64,000 nt of DNA from Roseinatronobacter thiooxidans (lineage in GTDB: Bacteria > Pseudomonadota > Alphaproteobacteria > Rhodobacterales > Rhodobacteraceae): NCBI RefSeq assembly GCF_001870675.1, contig NZ_MEHT01000045.1:248001-312000 (forward strand). The letters are read 5' to 3'. A model generated the notes under the pieces. That model was not told the DNA's origin, made no database searches, and saw only the letters and a list, made by a program, of their open reading frames with translations. The position numbers were made by a program, and so were the translations under genes. Shown here in pieces: positions 10,862-50,489 of this stretch. Within the stretch, counting starts at the first letter, position 1. Each line of letters starts with the position of its first letter.

Positions 10862-11187
10862 GTTTCACCACCGCGCATATCTGGACGATCATCATCGGGC
10901 TGGGGCTGGGGTCATACCTGCTGCGGCTGTCTTTTCTTGGCATCATCGGCAATCGTGACCTGCCCGAATGGGTGCTGCGGCATCTGCGCTATACGGCCGT
11001 CGCGGTCATGCCCGGCATGATCACACCGCTGATCCTGTTTCCACAGGCGACAGAAGGCACGCTTGACCCTGTGCGGATGGGGGCTGCTATTGCCACCATC
11101 GCCATCAGCTTTCTGACGCGCAATGCCACGCTCACAATTTTTGGCGGGGCTGCTGTGTTATTCGCCCTGCATTTCATCATGCATTAA
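10858..11187 (+). CDS. azlD: AzlD-family small subunit of amino acid exporter
   Basis: A 109-residue protein with three to four hydrophobic helices and the AzlD pattern: GLGSYLLRLSFLGI, PEWVLRHLRYTAVAVMPGM, then a C-terminal hydrophobic stretch. It is the partner of AzlC and starts inside that gene's stop codon. Its 3' end overlaps the convergent FAD-linked oxidase gene by 30 bases, so no dedicated terminator lies between them. Confidence 0.9.
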   Translation: MSFTTAHIWTIIIGLGLGSYLLRLSFLGIIGNRDLPEWVLRHLRYTAVAVMPGMITPLILFPQATEGTLDPVRMGAAIATIAISFLTRNATLTIFGGAAVLFALHFIMH

Positions 11188-12588
11188 CACAGCCCCCGGG
11201 TTCAATATTCCATGCGGGTCCAGCGCGGTTTTGATCGCGCGCATCATAGCCAGCTTGACCGGATCGCCATAGGTCACCAGATCCGCCGCCTTGATCCGCC
11301 CGATCCCATGCTCTGCACTGACAGAGCCGCCCATCTGGTGGACCAGATCATGCACGCAAGTGGTGATCTGCGCGCGCTCCCCATCATACGCGGCGCGGCT
11401 GTGCCCTGTGGCGGGAAAGACGTTATAATGCAGGTTGCCATCGCCCAGATGGCCAAAACAGTTGATCCGGCAGGCCTTGATCCGCGCCAACGCCTGCCCC
11501 GCCTTGGCGATGAAGGGCGCGATCTCGGACAAGGGCAGCGAAATGTCATGGCTGGCGATGGCACCTATATGGCGGTTCGCCTCTGGAATGGATTCGCGTA
11601 GGCTCCAGAACGCCTTGCGCTGCGCAAGGTTCGCCGCGATCACACCATCACGCACCAAGCCCTGTTCCAGCGCATCGGCAAATACCCGCTCCAGCGCGTC
11701 AGAGGCATCCGCCCCCGCAGGCAGGCCCAGATCAATCAGCACCATCCAGTCTGGTGGCACAGCAAAGGGCTGGCGGACCTGCGTCATTGTTTCGGCCAGA
11801 AAGGCAAGGCCCGTCCCGCTGATCAACTCGAAGGCTGAAATCCCGTCCCCAAGCCGCGCTTGCGCCAGCGCCAGCAGCGACAAGGCGGCCTTTGGTCCAT
11901 CCACCACCATCAGGGCAGCCCCCTGCACCGCAGGGCGCGGCGACAATCGCAGGCTGGCGGCAGTGATCACGCCAAGCGTACCTTCCGAGCCAATCATCAG
12001 ATGGCGCAGATCATAGCCGGTATTGTCTTTGCGCAGCCGCTTCAACCCGTGCCAGATGCGCCCATCCGCAAGGACGACTTCCAGCCCCAATGTCAGATCG
12101 CGCGCATTGCCATAGCGCAGCACATTCACCCCGCCCGCATTGCAGGCCAGCAACCCGCCAATGCGCGCCGACCCTTCCGAGGCAAGCGACAAAGGGAACA
12201 ATCGCCCCGCCATCTCTGCGGCGCGCTGCACATCGGCCAAAATCGCCCCCGCCTCTGCGACAAGGACATTCTCTGTCGGGTAGACCTGCCGGATCGCCTG
12301 CATCCGTTCCAGCGACAGGATCAGCGGCAGCGCATTGCCCAAGCCCACCTGCCCGCCGACCAGCCCCGTGCCCCCCCCATAGGGAATGACAGGCACATGC
12401 GCCGCATGACAGGCGCGCAAGATCACAGACACCTCCTCGACATTGCGCGGCAGCGCCACAGCACCGCCCTGCCCTGTCAGCCGCCCGCGCGGCTCTTCCA
12501 GATAGCGCGGTTCTGGTGCGGCCAGCGCATCGGGGGGCAAAAGCCCCGATAACTTGGCCAGAAAATCTGTATCACATGCAGTTAACAT
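11158..12588 (-). CDS. FAD-linked 2-hydroxyacid dehydrogenase (GlcD/D-lactate type)
   Basis: 476 residues with a PCMH-type FAD-binding domain in the first half (VPVIPYGGGTGLVGGQ, then GSARIGGLLACNAGGVNVLRYG and GSEGTLGVITAA) and the FAD-oxidase C-terminal domain (NCFGHLGDGNLHYN, SAEHGIGRIKA, DPHGILNPG). It would oxidise a D-2-hydroxyacid such as glycolate or D-lactate. No GlcE or GlcF partner is adjacent, so a single-subunit D-lactate or 2-hydroxyglutarate-type enzyme is as likely as GlcD. The start is ATG 12588 (MLTACDT). Confidence 0.88.
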   Translation of the reverse strand: MLTACDTDFLAKLSGLLPPDALAAPEPRYLEEPRGRLTGQGGAVALPRNVEEVSVILRACHAAHVPVIPYGGGTGLVGGQVGLGNALPLILSLERMQAIRQVYPTENVLVAEAGAILADVQRAAEMAGRLFPLSLASEGSARIGGLLACNAGGVNVLRYGNARDLTLGLEVVLADGRIWHGLKRLRKDNTGYDLRHLMIGSEGTLGVITAASLRLSPRPAVQGAALMVVDGPKAALSLLALAQARLGDGISAFELISGTGLAFLAETMTQVRQPFAVPPDWMVLIDLGLPAGADASDALERVFADALEQGLVRDGVIAANLAQRKAFWSLRESIPEANRHIGAIASHDISLPLSEIAPFIAKAGQALARIKACRINCFGHLGDGNLHYNVFPATGHSRAAYDGERAQITTCVHDLVHQMGGSVSAEHGIGRIKAADLVTYGDPVKLAMMRAIKTALDPHGILNPGAVLMHDEMQGE

Positions 12589-12604: not shown

Positions 12605-12710
12605 GCGGGGCTGTGGCAGGCGCAGTCGGGGCGCAAGGTGCTGTGGCTGCCAAGCCACAGCGCCGGGGGTGGGTGGGCGGGCGCCCTGACTGCGCCTGTC
12701 ACAGCCCCGC
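12605..12710. repeat. Long inverted repeat with G4-motif loop, element 1
   Basis: A 30-base left arm (12605-12634) is complementary to the right arm (12681-12710) except for two mismatches. The 46-base loop holds a second hairpin (GCTGTGGC 12640-12647 / GCCACAGC 12654-12661) and then GGGGGTGGGTGGGCGGG (12665-12681), four G-runs with one-base loops. The right arm contains the stop codon of the GNAT gene (12699-12701). It could act as a terminator for the GNAT transcript or as a cruciform. Confidence 0.75.
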
Positions 12711-13286
12711 ATCTGTGCGCCCGCGCCGGTCATTGCGCAGATTGGCATAAAGGACATGATTGCGCCAACGCCCGTTAATCTGCAAATAGCTTTGTGCGAC
12801 GCCCTCATATTTGAACCCCGCGCGCTCCAACACACCGCGCGAGGCCACATTCTCGGGCAGGCAGGCCGCCTCGATCCGCGACAGGTCCATCACGCTGAAG
12901 GCATGATGCACGACAGCCCCGATCGCCTCGCGCATATAGCCTTGCCGCAGATATGGCGCGCCTACCCAATAGCCCAGCGTGCCCGCCTGCGCGGGCCCGC
13001 GCCGGATATTGTCGAGCGTGATCGCGCCCAACAAACTCTCATCATCGCGGCGCAGCAGAAACAGCGGCAGCGCCGTGTCGGTCTTATAGCAGCGCGTGGC
13101 CCAACTCACGCGGTTGGTGAAAGCCCGCCGCGTCAGGTGGTCATCCGACCATGTCGGCTCCCACGGGGTCAGAAAACCCGAGGATTGGCGGCGCAATTCC
13201 GACCATTGCCGGAAATCGCTATGCACAGGCAGACGCAAGGCCAGCCGCTCTGTCTCGATCCGCAGCTTGCCCCGCAGGCCCAGCAT
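12699..13286 (-). CDS. RimJ/RimL-type GNAT N-acetyltransferase
   Basis: A 195-residue GNAT protein. Residues 7-30 (LRIETERLALRLPVHSDF) and the acetyl-CoA site region GYMREAIGAVVHHAF, then NVASRGVLERAGFKYEGV, are the RimJ/RimL arrangement used to acetylate protein N-termini, often of ribosomal proteins. The substrate is not deducible. The ATG shares one base with the stop of the M16 peptidase gene. Its stop codon lies within the long inverted repeat. Confidence 0.88.
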   Translation of the reverse strand: MLGLRGKLRIETERLALRLPVHSDFRQWSELRRQSSGFLTPWEPTWSDDHLTRRAFTNRVSWATRCYKTDTALPLFLLRRDDESLLGAITLDNIRRGPAQAGTLGYWVGAPYLRQGYMREAIGAVVHHAFSVMDLSRIEAACLPENVASRGVLERAGFKYEGVAQSYLQINGRWRNHVLYANLRNDRRGRTDAGL

Positions 13287-46548: not shown

Positions 46549-47415
46549 TCAGCGCAGCAGGGTCAGCGTTGCCCAATCGCCAATATCTTCGCGGTGATGG
46601 AGCGTGAAACCGGCAGCAACATATGCCGCAAGCACCTGTTCGGCCTGTTCCACCAGCAGCCCAGACAGAATTGCATGCCCACCAGTGGCCGTGACACGGC
46701 CCATTTCGGGGGCAAGCTCGATCAGCGGACCCATCAGGATATTGGCAAAAACCAGATCGAAAGGGCAAGCGGCCTGCAAGTCGGGGTGGTCAAACCCTGT
46801 CGCTTCCAGACAGCGGACACGGTCTGTCAGCTCATTGGCTTCAATATTGACCTGCGCCACCTCGACTGCGATGGCATCAATATCGCTGGCAAGCACCGGC
46901 TGGGGCCAGATTTTTGCCGCAGCCATCGCCAGCACTGCCGTGCCGCAGCCGATATCTACCACATTGCGGCCCCGAAACCCTGCCAAATCCAGCCGGTCCA
47001 GCGCGCGTAGGCAGCCCAGCGTGGTGCCATGATGGCCGGTGCCAAAAGCCATCGACGCTTCGATCAACAAGCCCACACGCCCGTCGGGCAGTTTGTCGGC
47101 ATCGTGGCTGCCATAGACAAAGAACCGCCCCGCCTCGACCGGCGAGAGGTCGCGGCGCACTTTGGCAACCCAATCGATCTCGGGCAGTTCCGACACCAGA
47201 AACGGCGTTGCGTCAAAGGCTTGTGCCAGCAGTGCCAGTTCAATATCATCCGGGCAGTCAGTGAAATACCCGCCAACTTCCCACAGGTTAGACCCATCTT
47301 CCATCTCGAACACGCCCACACCCATAGGTTCTGGCGTCATGTTTTCCATCGCCTCGGACAGGGAATAGGCTTGCTCGGCAGAGGTCAGCTTGGTGATGGC
47401 AGTGAAGGTGGGCAT
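46549..47415 (-). CDS. prmA: Ribosomal protein L11 methyltransferase
   Basis: A 288-residue SAM methyltransferase that trimethylates L11. The substrate-recognition domain is at 1-110. Motif I is DIGCGTAVLAMAAAK, and LVFANILMGPLIELAPEM provides the N(I/V)L signature of PrmA. FGTGHHGTT precedes motif I, as in the family. The start is ATG 47415; the longer reading adds residues that do not resemble PrmA. Confidence 0.93.
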   Translation of the reverse strand: MPTFTAITKLTSAEQAYSLSEAMENMTPEPMGVGVFEMEDGSNLWEVGGYFTDCPDDIELALLAQAFDATPFLVSELPEIDWVAKVRRDLSPVEAGRFFVYGSHDADKLPDGRVGLLIEASMAFGTGHHGTTLGCLRALDRLDLAGFRGRNVVDIGCGTAVLAMAAAKIWPQPVLASDIDAIAVEVAQVNIEANELTDRVRCLEATGFDHPDLQAACPFDLVFANILMGPLIELAPEMGRVTATGGHAILSGLLVEQAEQVLAAYVAAGFTLHHREDIGDWATLTLLR

Positions 47416-47502
47416 GGGGCAGCCTTTGCTGGACAGAAAAGTTAGGGCCGCGATAGCGGGCCGCCCTGCCCCGGTCAAGCGAAACCCCCGCAGGCTGCAC
47501 CA

Positions 47503-47576
47503 AGGCGGCTGCGCCCTTGCTGCGGCGCGTGCGGGTGGGTGGGTGGGGCCGCGCCGGAGCGAGGGCGCAGCCGCCT
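47503..47576. repeat. Long inverted repeat with G4-motif loop, element 2
   Basis: A 27-base left arm (47503-47529) matches the complement of the right arm (47550-47576) with two mismatches. The loop contains GGGTGGGTGGGTGGGG (47533-47548), four G-runs with one-base spacers. The right arm ends on the first base of the msrA stop codon. The arms differ in sequence from element 1 at 12.6 kb, but the architecture is the same. Confidence 0.75.
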
Positions 47577-48226
47577 CAGGCCGTCAGGCCAATGGGACAG
47601 GTGACGCCCGTGCCCCCGATCCCGCAATATCCGGCGGGATTCTTATGCAGATATTGCTGGTGGTAATCTTCGGCAAAGTAGAATTCCGGCGCATCCACAA
47701 TCTCTGTCGTGACCGCGCCATGTCCTGCCTCCACAAGTCGCGCCTCATAGGCTTTGCGGCTGGCCTCGGCGGCGGATTTCTGCGCGTCTGAATAGGCATA
47801 GATGCCCGATCTGTATTGCGTGCCACGGTCATTGCCCTGCCGCATGCCTTGGGTCGGGTTGTGCCCCTCCCAAAACCGGCGCAGCAAGTCTTCATACGAA
47901 ATCTGGGCCGGGTCAAAGATCACGCGCACCACCTCGTTATGGCCGGTCTTGCCGGTGCAGACCTCGTCATATGTGGGGTTTGGCGTATAGCCGCCCGCAT
48001 AGCCCACCATTGTCAGCCACACACCGGGAAGTTGCCAGAAAATCCGCTCTACCCCCCAGAAACACCCCATGCCGAACATGGCCTCTTGCAGGCCCTCTGG
48101 CACAGGCGCTTTCAGCGGGCGACCATAGATTGCATGCGTGTCTGCTGTGGCAATGGCGCTGGCACGACCGGCAAGGGCGTCTTGCGGTGCGATCATGCGC
48201 GTTTTGTCCTGCCCAAATCCGAACAT
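47576..48226 (-). CDS. msrA: Peptide methionine-(S)-sulfoxide reductase
   Basis: A 216-residue enzyme repairing oxidised methionine. The catalytic Cys is in [41 protein letters not shown] and [23 protein letters not shown] are canonical MsrA. The resolving cysteine lies at the C-terminus ([13 protein letters not shown]). There is an N-terminal extension of about 45 residues. The start is ATG 48226. Its stop is in the right arm of the long inverted repeat. Confidence 0.96.
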
Positions 48227-48284
48227 CTGTGAACTCCTTGTTTTCTTCCCGATAGATAGCCTTTCACCGCCGGTTTGCAACGGC

Positions 48285-50489
48285 TCAGTAAAAGCTTTGC
48301 GGGTCGATATCGACACTCAGGCGCAGCCCGCGCGGCAGGTTATGCGGCTTCAGCCATGCTGCGATCGCGCCTTGCAAGGCCGCGCCCTTCGGGGCTTTCA
48401 CCAACAGACGGACCCTGTGCATCCCGCGAATGCGCGCAATCGGGGCGGGTGCAGGGCCGAAAACCTGCGCGCCAATCGCGCGCAAGGGCGCATCCGCCTG
48501 TGCCAGCCGCGTGCCCAGCTCGAACGCAGGCTCCATCGCAGGGGCCGACAGGATCACCCCTGCCAGCCGCCCGTGGGGGGGCATGCGCAACCCTTCGCGC
48601 TGTGCAGATTCGCTTTGCCAGAACGCCTCTTCCTCGCCCGACAGGATGGCGCGGATCACGGGGTGATCGGGCTGGCTGGTCTGGACCAGCGCGCGGCCGG
48701 GCTTGTCGGCGCGCCCTGCGCGGCCGGACACCTGCCGCACCAGTTGAAACACCCGCTCTGCCGCGCGCAGGTCGGACCCTGACAGCCCCAGATCGGCATC
48801 AATCACCCCCACCAGCGTCAGGTTGGGAAAGTTGTGGCCCTTGGCCACGATCTGCGTGCCGATGATGATATCAGCCTCGCCGCCCGCGATCACGGCAATC
48901 TGGTCTTTCAGCGCGCGCGCGGACCCGAACAGGTCGGACGACAGCACCGCCACGCGCGCATCGGGCCATAGCGCGCGGGCCTCTTCCTCCAGCCGCTCTA
49001 CCCCCGGCCCGACAGGGGCAAGCCGGTCTTCCGCCCCGCAGGCAGGGCAGGTCGCAGGCATCGGCGCGGTTGCCCCGCATTGGTGGCACACAAGCCGCTT
49101 GAGGAACCGATGCTCTACCATGCGCGCGTCGCAATCGCTGCATTCCACCTGATGCCCGCAGGCGCGGCAGATCGTCAGCGGCGCATAGCCGCGCCGGTTC
49201 AGGAATAACAACGCCTGCTCGCCCGCAGCCAGCCGCGCCGTGACGGCGCGTTGCAGCGTGGGCGACACCCAGCGGCCAGTGGGCAGGTCTTCCGCGCGCA
49301 GATCGATCGCACGCATTTCAGGCAAGGTGTTGGGGCCGAAACGCGCGGATAAATCCAGCCGCGCATATTTGCCAGCCCGCGCATTGGCCCATGTTTCCAG
49401 CGACGGGGTGGCCGAGGCCAGAATCACCTGCCCCCCCGCCATGGCCGCACGCAAAACGGCCATGTCGCGGGCATGATATAAAACGCCCTCTTCCTGCTTA
49501 TAGGAACTGTCATGTTCCTCATCCACCACGATCAGCCCCAGATCGCGGAATGGCAGGAACAGCGCCGATCGCGCGCCCACCACTAGCTGCGCGGCCCCCT
49601 GCCCCACCATATGCCAGCAGCGCCGCCGTTCGCTAAGCGTCACACCGGAATGCCATTCCGCAGGCCGCGCACCAAACCGCGCTTCAACCCGTGTCAGAAA
49701 TTCGGATGTCAGCGCGATTTCCGGCAGCAGGACCAGCGCCTGACGCCCCAGCGCCAGACAGGCGGCTATGGCTTCCAGATACACTTCGGTCTTGCCGGAC
49801 CCTGTCACCCCTTTCAACAGCGTTGTGCCATACTCCCCCGATTGCACACCCGCCGCCAATACCGCCGCCGCCTGCGCCTGATCGTCGGTCAGGTTTGCCC
49901 CCGCGCGCGCAGGGTCAAGGCGCGGATAGGGCTGGTCGCGCAGCGCTTCGCGTTCCAGTAGCGCACCCGCCTGCACCAGCCCGCGCACCACACCGGAACT
50001 GACCCCCGCCGCCTGTGCCAATTCGCCCGGCGTCAGGCCCGCACCGCCAAACCCGTCGAACACCGCCAGCACCTTTTCGCGCGCCTCGGTCATGCGGGGG
50101 GGCGCGCTGTCTGTGCGATACAAGAGCTTGCGCGTTGCAGGGCCGCTGCCAAGGTCAGGCACGCGCGTGGCCAGCCGCAGCATGGCAGGCAGGGGGGTCA
50201 GGGTGTAATCGGCCACCCGCGCCAGAAAGGCGCGCAATTCCGCGCGCATCGGCACGGCATCCAGCACGCGGATGACAGCGCGCAGTTTCGCGCGGGGAAA
50301 GCTGCCCTCTGCCGCGCCCCAGACCACACCGACCACGCGGCGCGGCCCCAGCGGCGCCTCGACAAAAGCGCCGATCCAAGCCCCGCCTTCGGGGGCCAGA
50401 TAATCCAGCACCCGGCCCAAAGGCTCTGCCGTCAGCACCCCGCAAGGCGTGCCTTCATCGAAAAATTCAAGGGCGTCGGACATTGGCAT
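48285..50489 (-). CDS. priA: Primosomal replication-restart helicase PriA
   Basis: A protein of about 734 residues (ATG 50489, or 732 from 50483) that reloads the replisome at stalled forks. The N-terminal DNA-binding domain is about 1-180. Walker A is [18 protein letters not shown], the DEXH-type box is [11 protein letters not shown], and zinc-binding cysteines are in [16 protein letters not shown] and [18 protein letters not shown]. The helicase C-terminal motifs include [20 protein letters not shown]. Neither start has a clear ribosome site. It is divergent from the aldolase gene. Confidence 0.95.

Follow-up and report, generated by a model that had tools for sequence, protein, structure and literature searches.

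A family of DNA hairpins with a G-quadruplex (G4) motif in the loop was found in Rhodobacteraceae and is apparently undescribed. Comparison of its members shows, at the level of sequence, that the ability of the G-rich strand to fold into a stem with a G4-forming loop at its tip has been maintained. The window, which is the whole stretch of 64 kb analyzed from Roseinatronobacter thiooxidans, was scanned for inverted repeats with arms of 18 nt or longer and for four-tract G4s with loops of 1-3 nt; each scan gave two hits, and the hits coincide at 12605-12710 (element 1) and 47503-47576 (element 2). The cores possess four runs of at least three G with short loops, the sequence criterion for a G4, and ViennaRNA with quadruplexes allowed predicted the stem together with the G4 for both elements. 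Screening of the whole window against Rfam gave no match above the gathering score. If our reading is true, members of a bacterial family maintain G-quadruplexes as structured, strand-specific and replication-oriented DNA elements at gene ends. Stem covariation and mismatch polarity would then be comparative evidence for selection on the G4-bearing hairpin, independent of in-vitro folding, and the open question whether bacterial G4s fold and act in cells would become directly testable.

Element 1 and its neighboring genes comprise the following features.

12605..12634, plus strand: left outer arm (30 nt) of element 1, pairing with 12681-12710 at 93% complementarity
12635..12636, plus strand: AA linker at the loop entry, read from the sequence
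12637..12664, plus strand: nested 12-bp hairpin, arms 12637-12648 and 12653-12664
12665..12681, plus strand: four-tract G4 core GGGGGTGGGTGGGCGGG, from the G4 scan of the window
12681..12710, plus strand: right outer arm, enclosing the GNAT stop codon (12699-12701, minus strand)
12699..13286, minus strand: GNAT acetyltransferase gene with the element at its 3' end (PF13302 Acetyltransf_3, E 1.5e-23)
11158..12588, minus strand: FAD-linked oxidase gene, downstream (PF02913 and PF01565)

A preliminary description of this site had reported two 30-base arms with two mismatches, a loop holding a nested hairpin followed by four G-runs, the GNAT stop codon within the right arm, and G-runs on the template strand of GNAT, all of which were borne out at these coordinates. 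Both arm mismatches are G.T on the plus strand. The loop of 46 nt is composed of AA, the nested hairpin and GGGGGTGGGTGGGCGG, and the final G of the G4 motif doubles as the first base of the right arm. AA or GA at the loop entry is frequent in the nested-type loops of the genus, according to our loop table. Folding z-scores of -6.24 (G-rich strand) and -4.63 (opposite strand) were obtained, and on neither strand did any of 200 shuffles score as well. The sequence directly after the hairpin, TGCCAAGGGAGGTGCC, is without a U-tract, and the FAD-linked oxidase start codon, preceded by GGGAGG, lies 16 nt past the hairpin.

A like layout with other outer and inner stems was found at the GNAT-FAD-oxidase site of G021, G013, G011, Roseibaca ekhonensis CECT 7235 (L071) and Rhabdonatronobacter sediminivivens IM2376 (L109), and versions with a short loop are present in G023 (L072) and L068. 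Among the 11 closest named loci (L063-L073), three have a G4 hairpin (L068, L071, L072), three are truncated by the contig end (L065, L067, L070) and five are without a G4 hairpin, including Natronohydrobacter thiooxidans (L063) with a 20-bp hairpin and no G4. Within the 70 loci L073-L142, one of them too short to score, a four-tract run inside a hairpin loop was seen in L109 only. Metagenome contigs often stop within a few dozen nucleotides of these elements, and in the three truncated GNAT contigs no more than 35 nt separate the stop codon from the contig end. The elements therefore probably break assemblies and are undercounted in metagenome-assembled genomes.

Element 2 is located between msrA and prmA.

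47503..47576, plus strand: element 2, arms 47503-47529 and 47550-47576, 27 nt with two mismatches
47533-47548, plus strand: G4 in the loop of element 2, GGGTGGGTGGGTGGGG, from the window scan
47576..48316, minus strand: msrA (peptide methionine sulfoxide reductase), upstream gene (PF01625, E 3.9e-63)
46549..47478, minus strand: prmA (ribosomal protein L11 methyltransferase), downstream gene (PF06325, E 2.5e-54; ORF as listed, start unrefined)

The msrA stop codon begins at the last base of the right arm. By script, the 30 genus loci at this site, our own included, divide into 14 with a hairpin whose loop holds at least three G-runs, three in which a loop of this kind is inverted, and 13 with a different hairpin or no hairpin, indicating frequent loss or gain of the element. 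In L392, which belongs to the 13, a G4 lies beside the best repeat, and the same locus was scored elsewhere (as L059) as enclosed by a weaker repeat. Closely similar arms hold a 7-nt loop without a G4 in L400 (G010) and the full G4 loop in L377 (G009), so the loop can be lost or gained while the stem stays.

The G4 sequence GGGNGGGNGGGNGGG occurs in 11 copies in the own genome (3.5 Mb). Ten of them are inside a hairpin with arms of 13-30 nt and the remaining one is within a gene. The arms of the ten look unrelated, with a best pairwise match of 18 of 28 loop-flanking nt. The pattern GGGTGGGTGGGYGGG is present in 28 of 37 genus genomes, the own genome included, and in 51 of 295 family genomes. 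In a class sample of 289 searched genomes, four of which belong to the family, it was found in one of the 285 outside the family, and in this single carrier (G402) none of three G4s is in a hairpin. The pattern undercounts the family because G040 lacks it yet has hairpins with other spacers. Of 127 elements, 118 have T,T,T or T,T,C as spacers, counting those in which an additional G precedes the first T. Stems range from 9 to 34 bp and loops from 14 to 83 nt, mostly 15-50 nt.

A total of 217 tight four-tract G4s were sampled from the own and related genomes by their G pattern regardless of hairpins, a sampling that favours contigs with long flanks. An enclosing inverted repeat was found around 200 of them (178 at a score of at least 12), and 17 are without a repeat; L203, L209, L220 and L224 have a different layout with no enclosing repeat and were counted as misses. 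In the first 138 loci, a flanking repeat with a score of at least 12 was found in 110. The corresponding numbers are zero among 690 controls with shuffled flanks and five among 224 other gene 3' ends. When the threshold is relaxed to 9, the counts become 127/138, 34/690 and 15/224, respectively. Pure chance and GC-richness as the source of the association are ruled out by the shuffles and the other gene 3' ends. G4s less than 60 nt from the locus end were excluded before counting (seven of 96 in one set, with the same rule for the sets of 138 and 217), and removal of near-duplicate arms reduced the 200 hairpins to 181 non-redundant elements.

With the G strand taken as plus, the gene contexts of the 200 hairpins are '--' in 88, '+-' in 74, '++' in 22, inside a gene in eight, '-+' (between divergent genes) in only five and unknown in three. 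In 71 of 84 non-redundant '--' cases and 9 of 21 '++' contexts, no more than 20 nt separate the upstream stop codon from the arm. Among 63 convergent pairs, the nearer stop belongs in 52 to the '-' gene, which is transcribed from the G strand, and in ten to the other gene, with one tie. Strong enrichment over shuffled sequence and a location at gene 3' ends, both of which the preliminary description had proposed to test, are seen in the counts above. All contexts come from a home-made gene caller trained on the window and genus loci, in near-full agreement with a retrained version; a codon model self-trained on the very GC-rich G122 and G290 was discarded for its implausible gene calls (many 'inside').

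As in Rho-independent terminators, a stable GC-rich hairpin stands just past the stop codon, and the arms had indeed been proposed to form a terminator. This part of the proposal is not supported. In 127 elements, of which 115 are in '--', '+-' or '++' contexts, the 14 nt following the hairpin were read in both directions and contain no T run, and 34 of the 84 non-redundant co-directional ('--') cases have the next in-frame start codon no more than 25 nt beyond the hairpin, a spacing at which full termination would leave a promoter no room. These two features make a complete terminator unlikely in those cases. Moreover, the mismatches of the stems, unlike those of intrinsic terminators, favour folding of the G strand and not of the mRNA. 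The accompanying suggestion of a template-strand roadblock is compatible with our results.

The arms differ between loci yet remain complementary, altering in compensating pairs. Pooled over 65 of 89 ortholog-like pairs (defined by a blastn match of at least 250 nt around the element, and not independent of each other), the stem pairs comprise 977 unchanged, 150 compensatory double, 54 one-sided G.T, 10 one-sided A.C, 127 other one-sided, 47 other double and 90 unaligned positions. The compensatory changes indicate that the hairpin is under selection, as judged from sequence comparison.

Mismatches of the G.T type are tolerated better in the order of mismatch stabilities, and their distribution points to the strand on which folding would be selected. 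In the 181 non-redundant elements, the mismatches written on the G strand are G.T 82, A.C 6, G.A 30, C.T 8, G.G 30, C.C 2, T.T 1 and A.A 1. G.A and G.G together amount to 60 versus 10 for C.T and C.C, and 95 individual elements lean to the G type versus 10 to the C type. The ratio of G.T to A.C is 41/0 in '--', 11/1 in '++' and 27/5 in '+-' contexts; since the lean is the same in '--' and '++', the polarity is independent of transcription direction. General mutation or hairpin bias was rejected as its cause because 112 control hairpins at 3' ends of the same clade, without G-runs or U-tract, show little polarity (G.T 69 / A.C 46, G.A 34 / C.T 39, G.G 35 / C.C 43). The G.T/A.C ratio is 15/18 in 54 control hairpins at convergent 3' ends. 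Local G-excess was rejected as well, for the distal part of the arms is also polar (29 G.T / 4 A.C). Selection acts mainly on the G-rich strand, probably as DNA, to judge from this pattern; the G strand is the template in the commonest context, which makes DNA the straightforward reading. An antisense RNA transcribed from the G strand would yield the same mismatch polarity and is a possible alternative.

The polarity also bears on an RNA-level function, in which the upstream mRNA would fold into a 3'-end hairpin, as in intercistronic stabilising hairpins, and its C-rich loop (CCCACCCACCCACCC) would bind Rho or another protein or block exonucleases. Several features fit such a role, namely that the stem adjoins the stop codon and is very stable as RNA too, that the downstream gene often begins immediately, an arrangement also seen in processed operons, and that '--' contexts exceed '++' ones. 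Yet the mismatches in '--' contexts harm exactly the mRNA strand, and the polarity is not reversed in '++' contexts, whereas 34 U-tract hairpins of the same clade have G.U 16 / A.C 3 on the transcript. Together with the missing U-tract and an orientation that tracks replication in three genomes, this leads us to consider the RNA-level hairpin unlikely.

We favour, tentatively and with less than even confidence, a cis-acting DNA-structure element that would act as a roadblock to RNA polymerase reading the G strand, and not primarily as RNA. Under negative supercoiling or transient melting, the G-rich strand would extrude as a G4-capped hairpin. Between co-directional genes, where the G strand is the template for RNA, this structure would form a polar roadblock at which RNA polymerase is slowed or partly stopped just past the stop codon, and the next gene might thereby be insulated or attenuated. 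A template roadblock cannot be the only role, as 22 of the 200 hairpins are in '++' contexts with the G4 on the coding strand. During replication, the lagging-strand template is the exposed strand and DnaB tracks on it. Keeping the G4 off this strand would make the element transparent to normal forks, and the A.C, C.C and C.T mismatches on the C-rich strand, which are commoner near the loop, would weaken the sole hairpin that can form in lagging-strand single-stranded DNA.

Orientation was examined in three genomes with an origin estimate (G020, G021, G290), where the leading-strand template bears the G4 in 42 of 44 elements (p 1.1e-10 against 0.5; 3.5e-6 against a leading-strand gene bias of 65%, the bias being about 64% in the G021 sample). 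All seven hairpins of G021 are polar, '-' at 0.84 Mb and '+' at 2.16-3.43 Mb, with dnaA at 3.75 Mb and a coarse cumulative skew peak near 1.8-1.9 Mb. All eight of G020 are polar as well, '+' at 0.19 and 0.27 Mb and '-' at 0.42-1.95 Mb, on an origin and terminus taken from a coarse skew sample (minimum near 0.35-0.5 Mb, maximum near 2.1 Mb) that place one element, at 417 kb, close to the estimated origin. For G290, 27 of 29 elements are polar (17/17 '-' before and 10/12 '+' after mid-contig), assuming the origin at dnaA (contig start) and the terminus at mid-contig; 27 of the 29 were fetched. These tallies leave out the poly-G or G7 matches of G021 and G290 and, in G020, two intragenic G4s that have no hairpin. 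Thirteen elements lie between two head-on genes; 11 of them ('++' contexts; seven in G290, three in G020 and one in G021) hold the replication orientation and two, both in G290, follow the genes, so the polarity is not merely gene orientation. G021 also has 11 places matching the DnaA model at about 43 bits, in frames of 299 or 813 aa, which are probably an insertion-sequence ATPase.

In G122, 46 distinct sites are uniform in orientation within each of the four contigs having more than one (18, 14, 3 and 10 sites). The 31 fetched loci contain 30 distinct G4s, the 31st repeating another, and 28 of the 30 are hairpins. GC skew, sampled on contigs C1, C7 and C9 with C8 and C10 outside the sample, matches the strand on C9 (9/10 samples negative) and C7 (4/4 positive); on C1 it is mixed (three positive and three negative samples) though its 18 elements share direction. 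As an origin marker, dnaA was rejected in G122 because no GC-skew switch occurs at dnaA (contig C9, 250 kb), and the origin is probably elsewhere. With this marker rejected, G104 was left out of the scoring. G070 is mostly uniform by eye and stands outside the polarity tally. The plus strand of the window, on which both G4s lie, shows the expected slight deficit of G (skew -0.019). In G015 and G089, orientations are mixed within single contigs, and the polarity does not hold in every carrier genome. The orientation-breaking sites of G015 look by eye like dispersed REP-like copies of about 50 bp.

The three inverted loops at msrA, in G017, G011 and G020 (L376, L386 and L388), extend these observations. 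The msrA gene of G020 is head-on to the fork, and the loop is flipped relative to the gene so that the G4 stays on the leading-strand template; G017 and G011 are draft genomes lacking an origin estimate. On the G strand of the flipped loops, the mismatches total three G.T, one G.A, one C.C and no A.C (G020, G.T 2 / A.C 0; G017, one G.A; G011, one G.T and one C.C). Recombination between the arms would be the simplest route to such inversion.

KOPS, Chi and Ter are replication-oriented motifs, and like them the elements have an orientation set by replication direction. They differ in being structured elements of variable sequence instead of fixed words, and in comparison with KOPS the direction is opposite, the G-rich strand being on the leading-strand template. 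The elements might accordingly be a replication or segregation signal, either a protein-read site of the KOPS or Ter kind or a protein-free polar barrier to wrong-way forks. The polarity of 42/44 and the inverted loop at the head-on msrA of G020 fit this proposal, as do loop details that are common within a genome across unrelated arms, such as AGC after 17 of 27 G4s in G290. Against it, the elements are few and uneven (7-46 per polar genome), show no obvious clustering near mid-contig in G290 and run opposite to KOPS; the polarity fails in G015 and G089, and the link to stop codons is left unexplained. We regard such a signal as quite unlikely. Highly doubtful, too, is a protein-free, DNA-encoded one-way fork valve, in which origin-to-terminus forks would pass since DnaB meets the C-rich strand only, and a wrong-way DnaB would hit the folded G strand. 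Valves of this kind, perhaps numbering up to tens and placed at gene 3' ends as the only tolerated spots, would police fork direction, with the loop flipping by recombination between its own arms after a rearrangement.

REP/BIME elements, mobilized with RAYT (TnpA-REP), offer another precedent. REPs are extragenic, transcribed and not between divergent promoters. Our elements are alike in being extragenic hairpins between co-directional or convergent genes, seldom at divergent promoters, and G015 holds a subfamily whose dispersed copies are nearly identical. The family could accordingly consist of selfish or tolerated hairpins spread by a replication-coupled single-stranded DNA process, with the placement reflecting only tolerance outside promoters. 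Such ssDNA transposition would leave strand-specific ssDNA hairpins and replication polarity. In G015, copies of about 50 bp are near-identical with unrelated flanks, 15 of 21 sampled matching another in 27-28 of 28 loop-flanking nt; a few arms are shared in G122, and presence or absence varies at msrA. However, no RAYT or Y1 transposase gene (PF01797) was found in 8/8 carrier genomes (control: found in 5/14), arms are mostly locus-specific, with no two shared in the own genome, and the repeat copies appear by eye to be those that break the polarity. Unlike in REPs, the G4 core fills or ends the loop, several genomes show replication polarity, and positions are kept across species and some genera while the stems covary. 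A REP-like origin of the family is therefore judged improbable.

The dispersed palindromes of G015 surround the G4 at L341, L343-L346, L348-L350, L191 and L194, six of these ten being between convergent genes, and arms similar to them were seen by eye in G013, G046, G089 and G001. In G122, L228, L309, L291, L295 and L308 have nearly the same arms (GCCCCCCGGC...) and form a small repeat group, the sites being otherwise uniform in orientation.

Integron attC sites, compared by description only, are also sequence-variable, structure-conserved hairpins on one DNA strand right after a stop codon; the elements differ in having a G4 core and in occupying corresponding positions in different members of the genus at ordinary genes, msrA among them. 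Regulatory G4s reported at the nas promoter of Paracoccus (PMC5123632) and at pilE of Neisseria (PMC10094033) suggest that bacterial G4s can matter. Tight G-tracts and short loops are common to these G4s, to quadruplex-duplex hybrids and to our elements. The pilE and nas G4s are on the promoter side, whereas ours is a many-copy 3'-end family with the G4 within a stem in 200 of 217 cases. A 2026 hairpin survey considered perfect arms with spacers of up to 8 bp (PMC13155455); all 200 outer-stem loops are 14-83 nt and would be missed on those terms, though not every nested inner hairpin. In literature titles and abstract openings, where subscription literature is largely uncovered, no element combining these features was found, in agreement with the earlier statement that no named element of this type was known.

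A second layout was observed at gene 3' ends of other Rhodobacteraceae genera, in the four loci without an enclosing repeat (L203, L209, L220, L224). It consists of a GGGGGCAGCGCCCCC-like hairpin, a few bases and then GGGTGGGTGGGCGGG, which leads, close to the stop codon, into a C-rich complement (GGGCCCACCC or a similar sequence).
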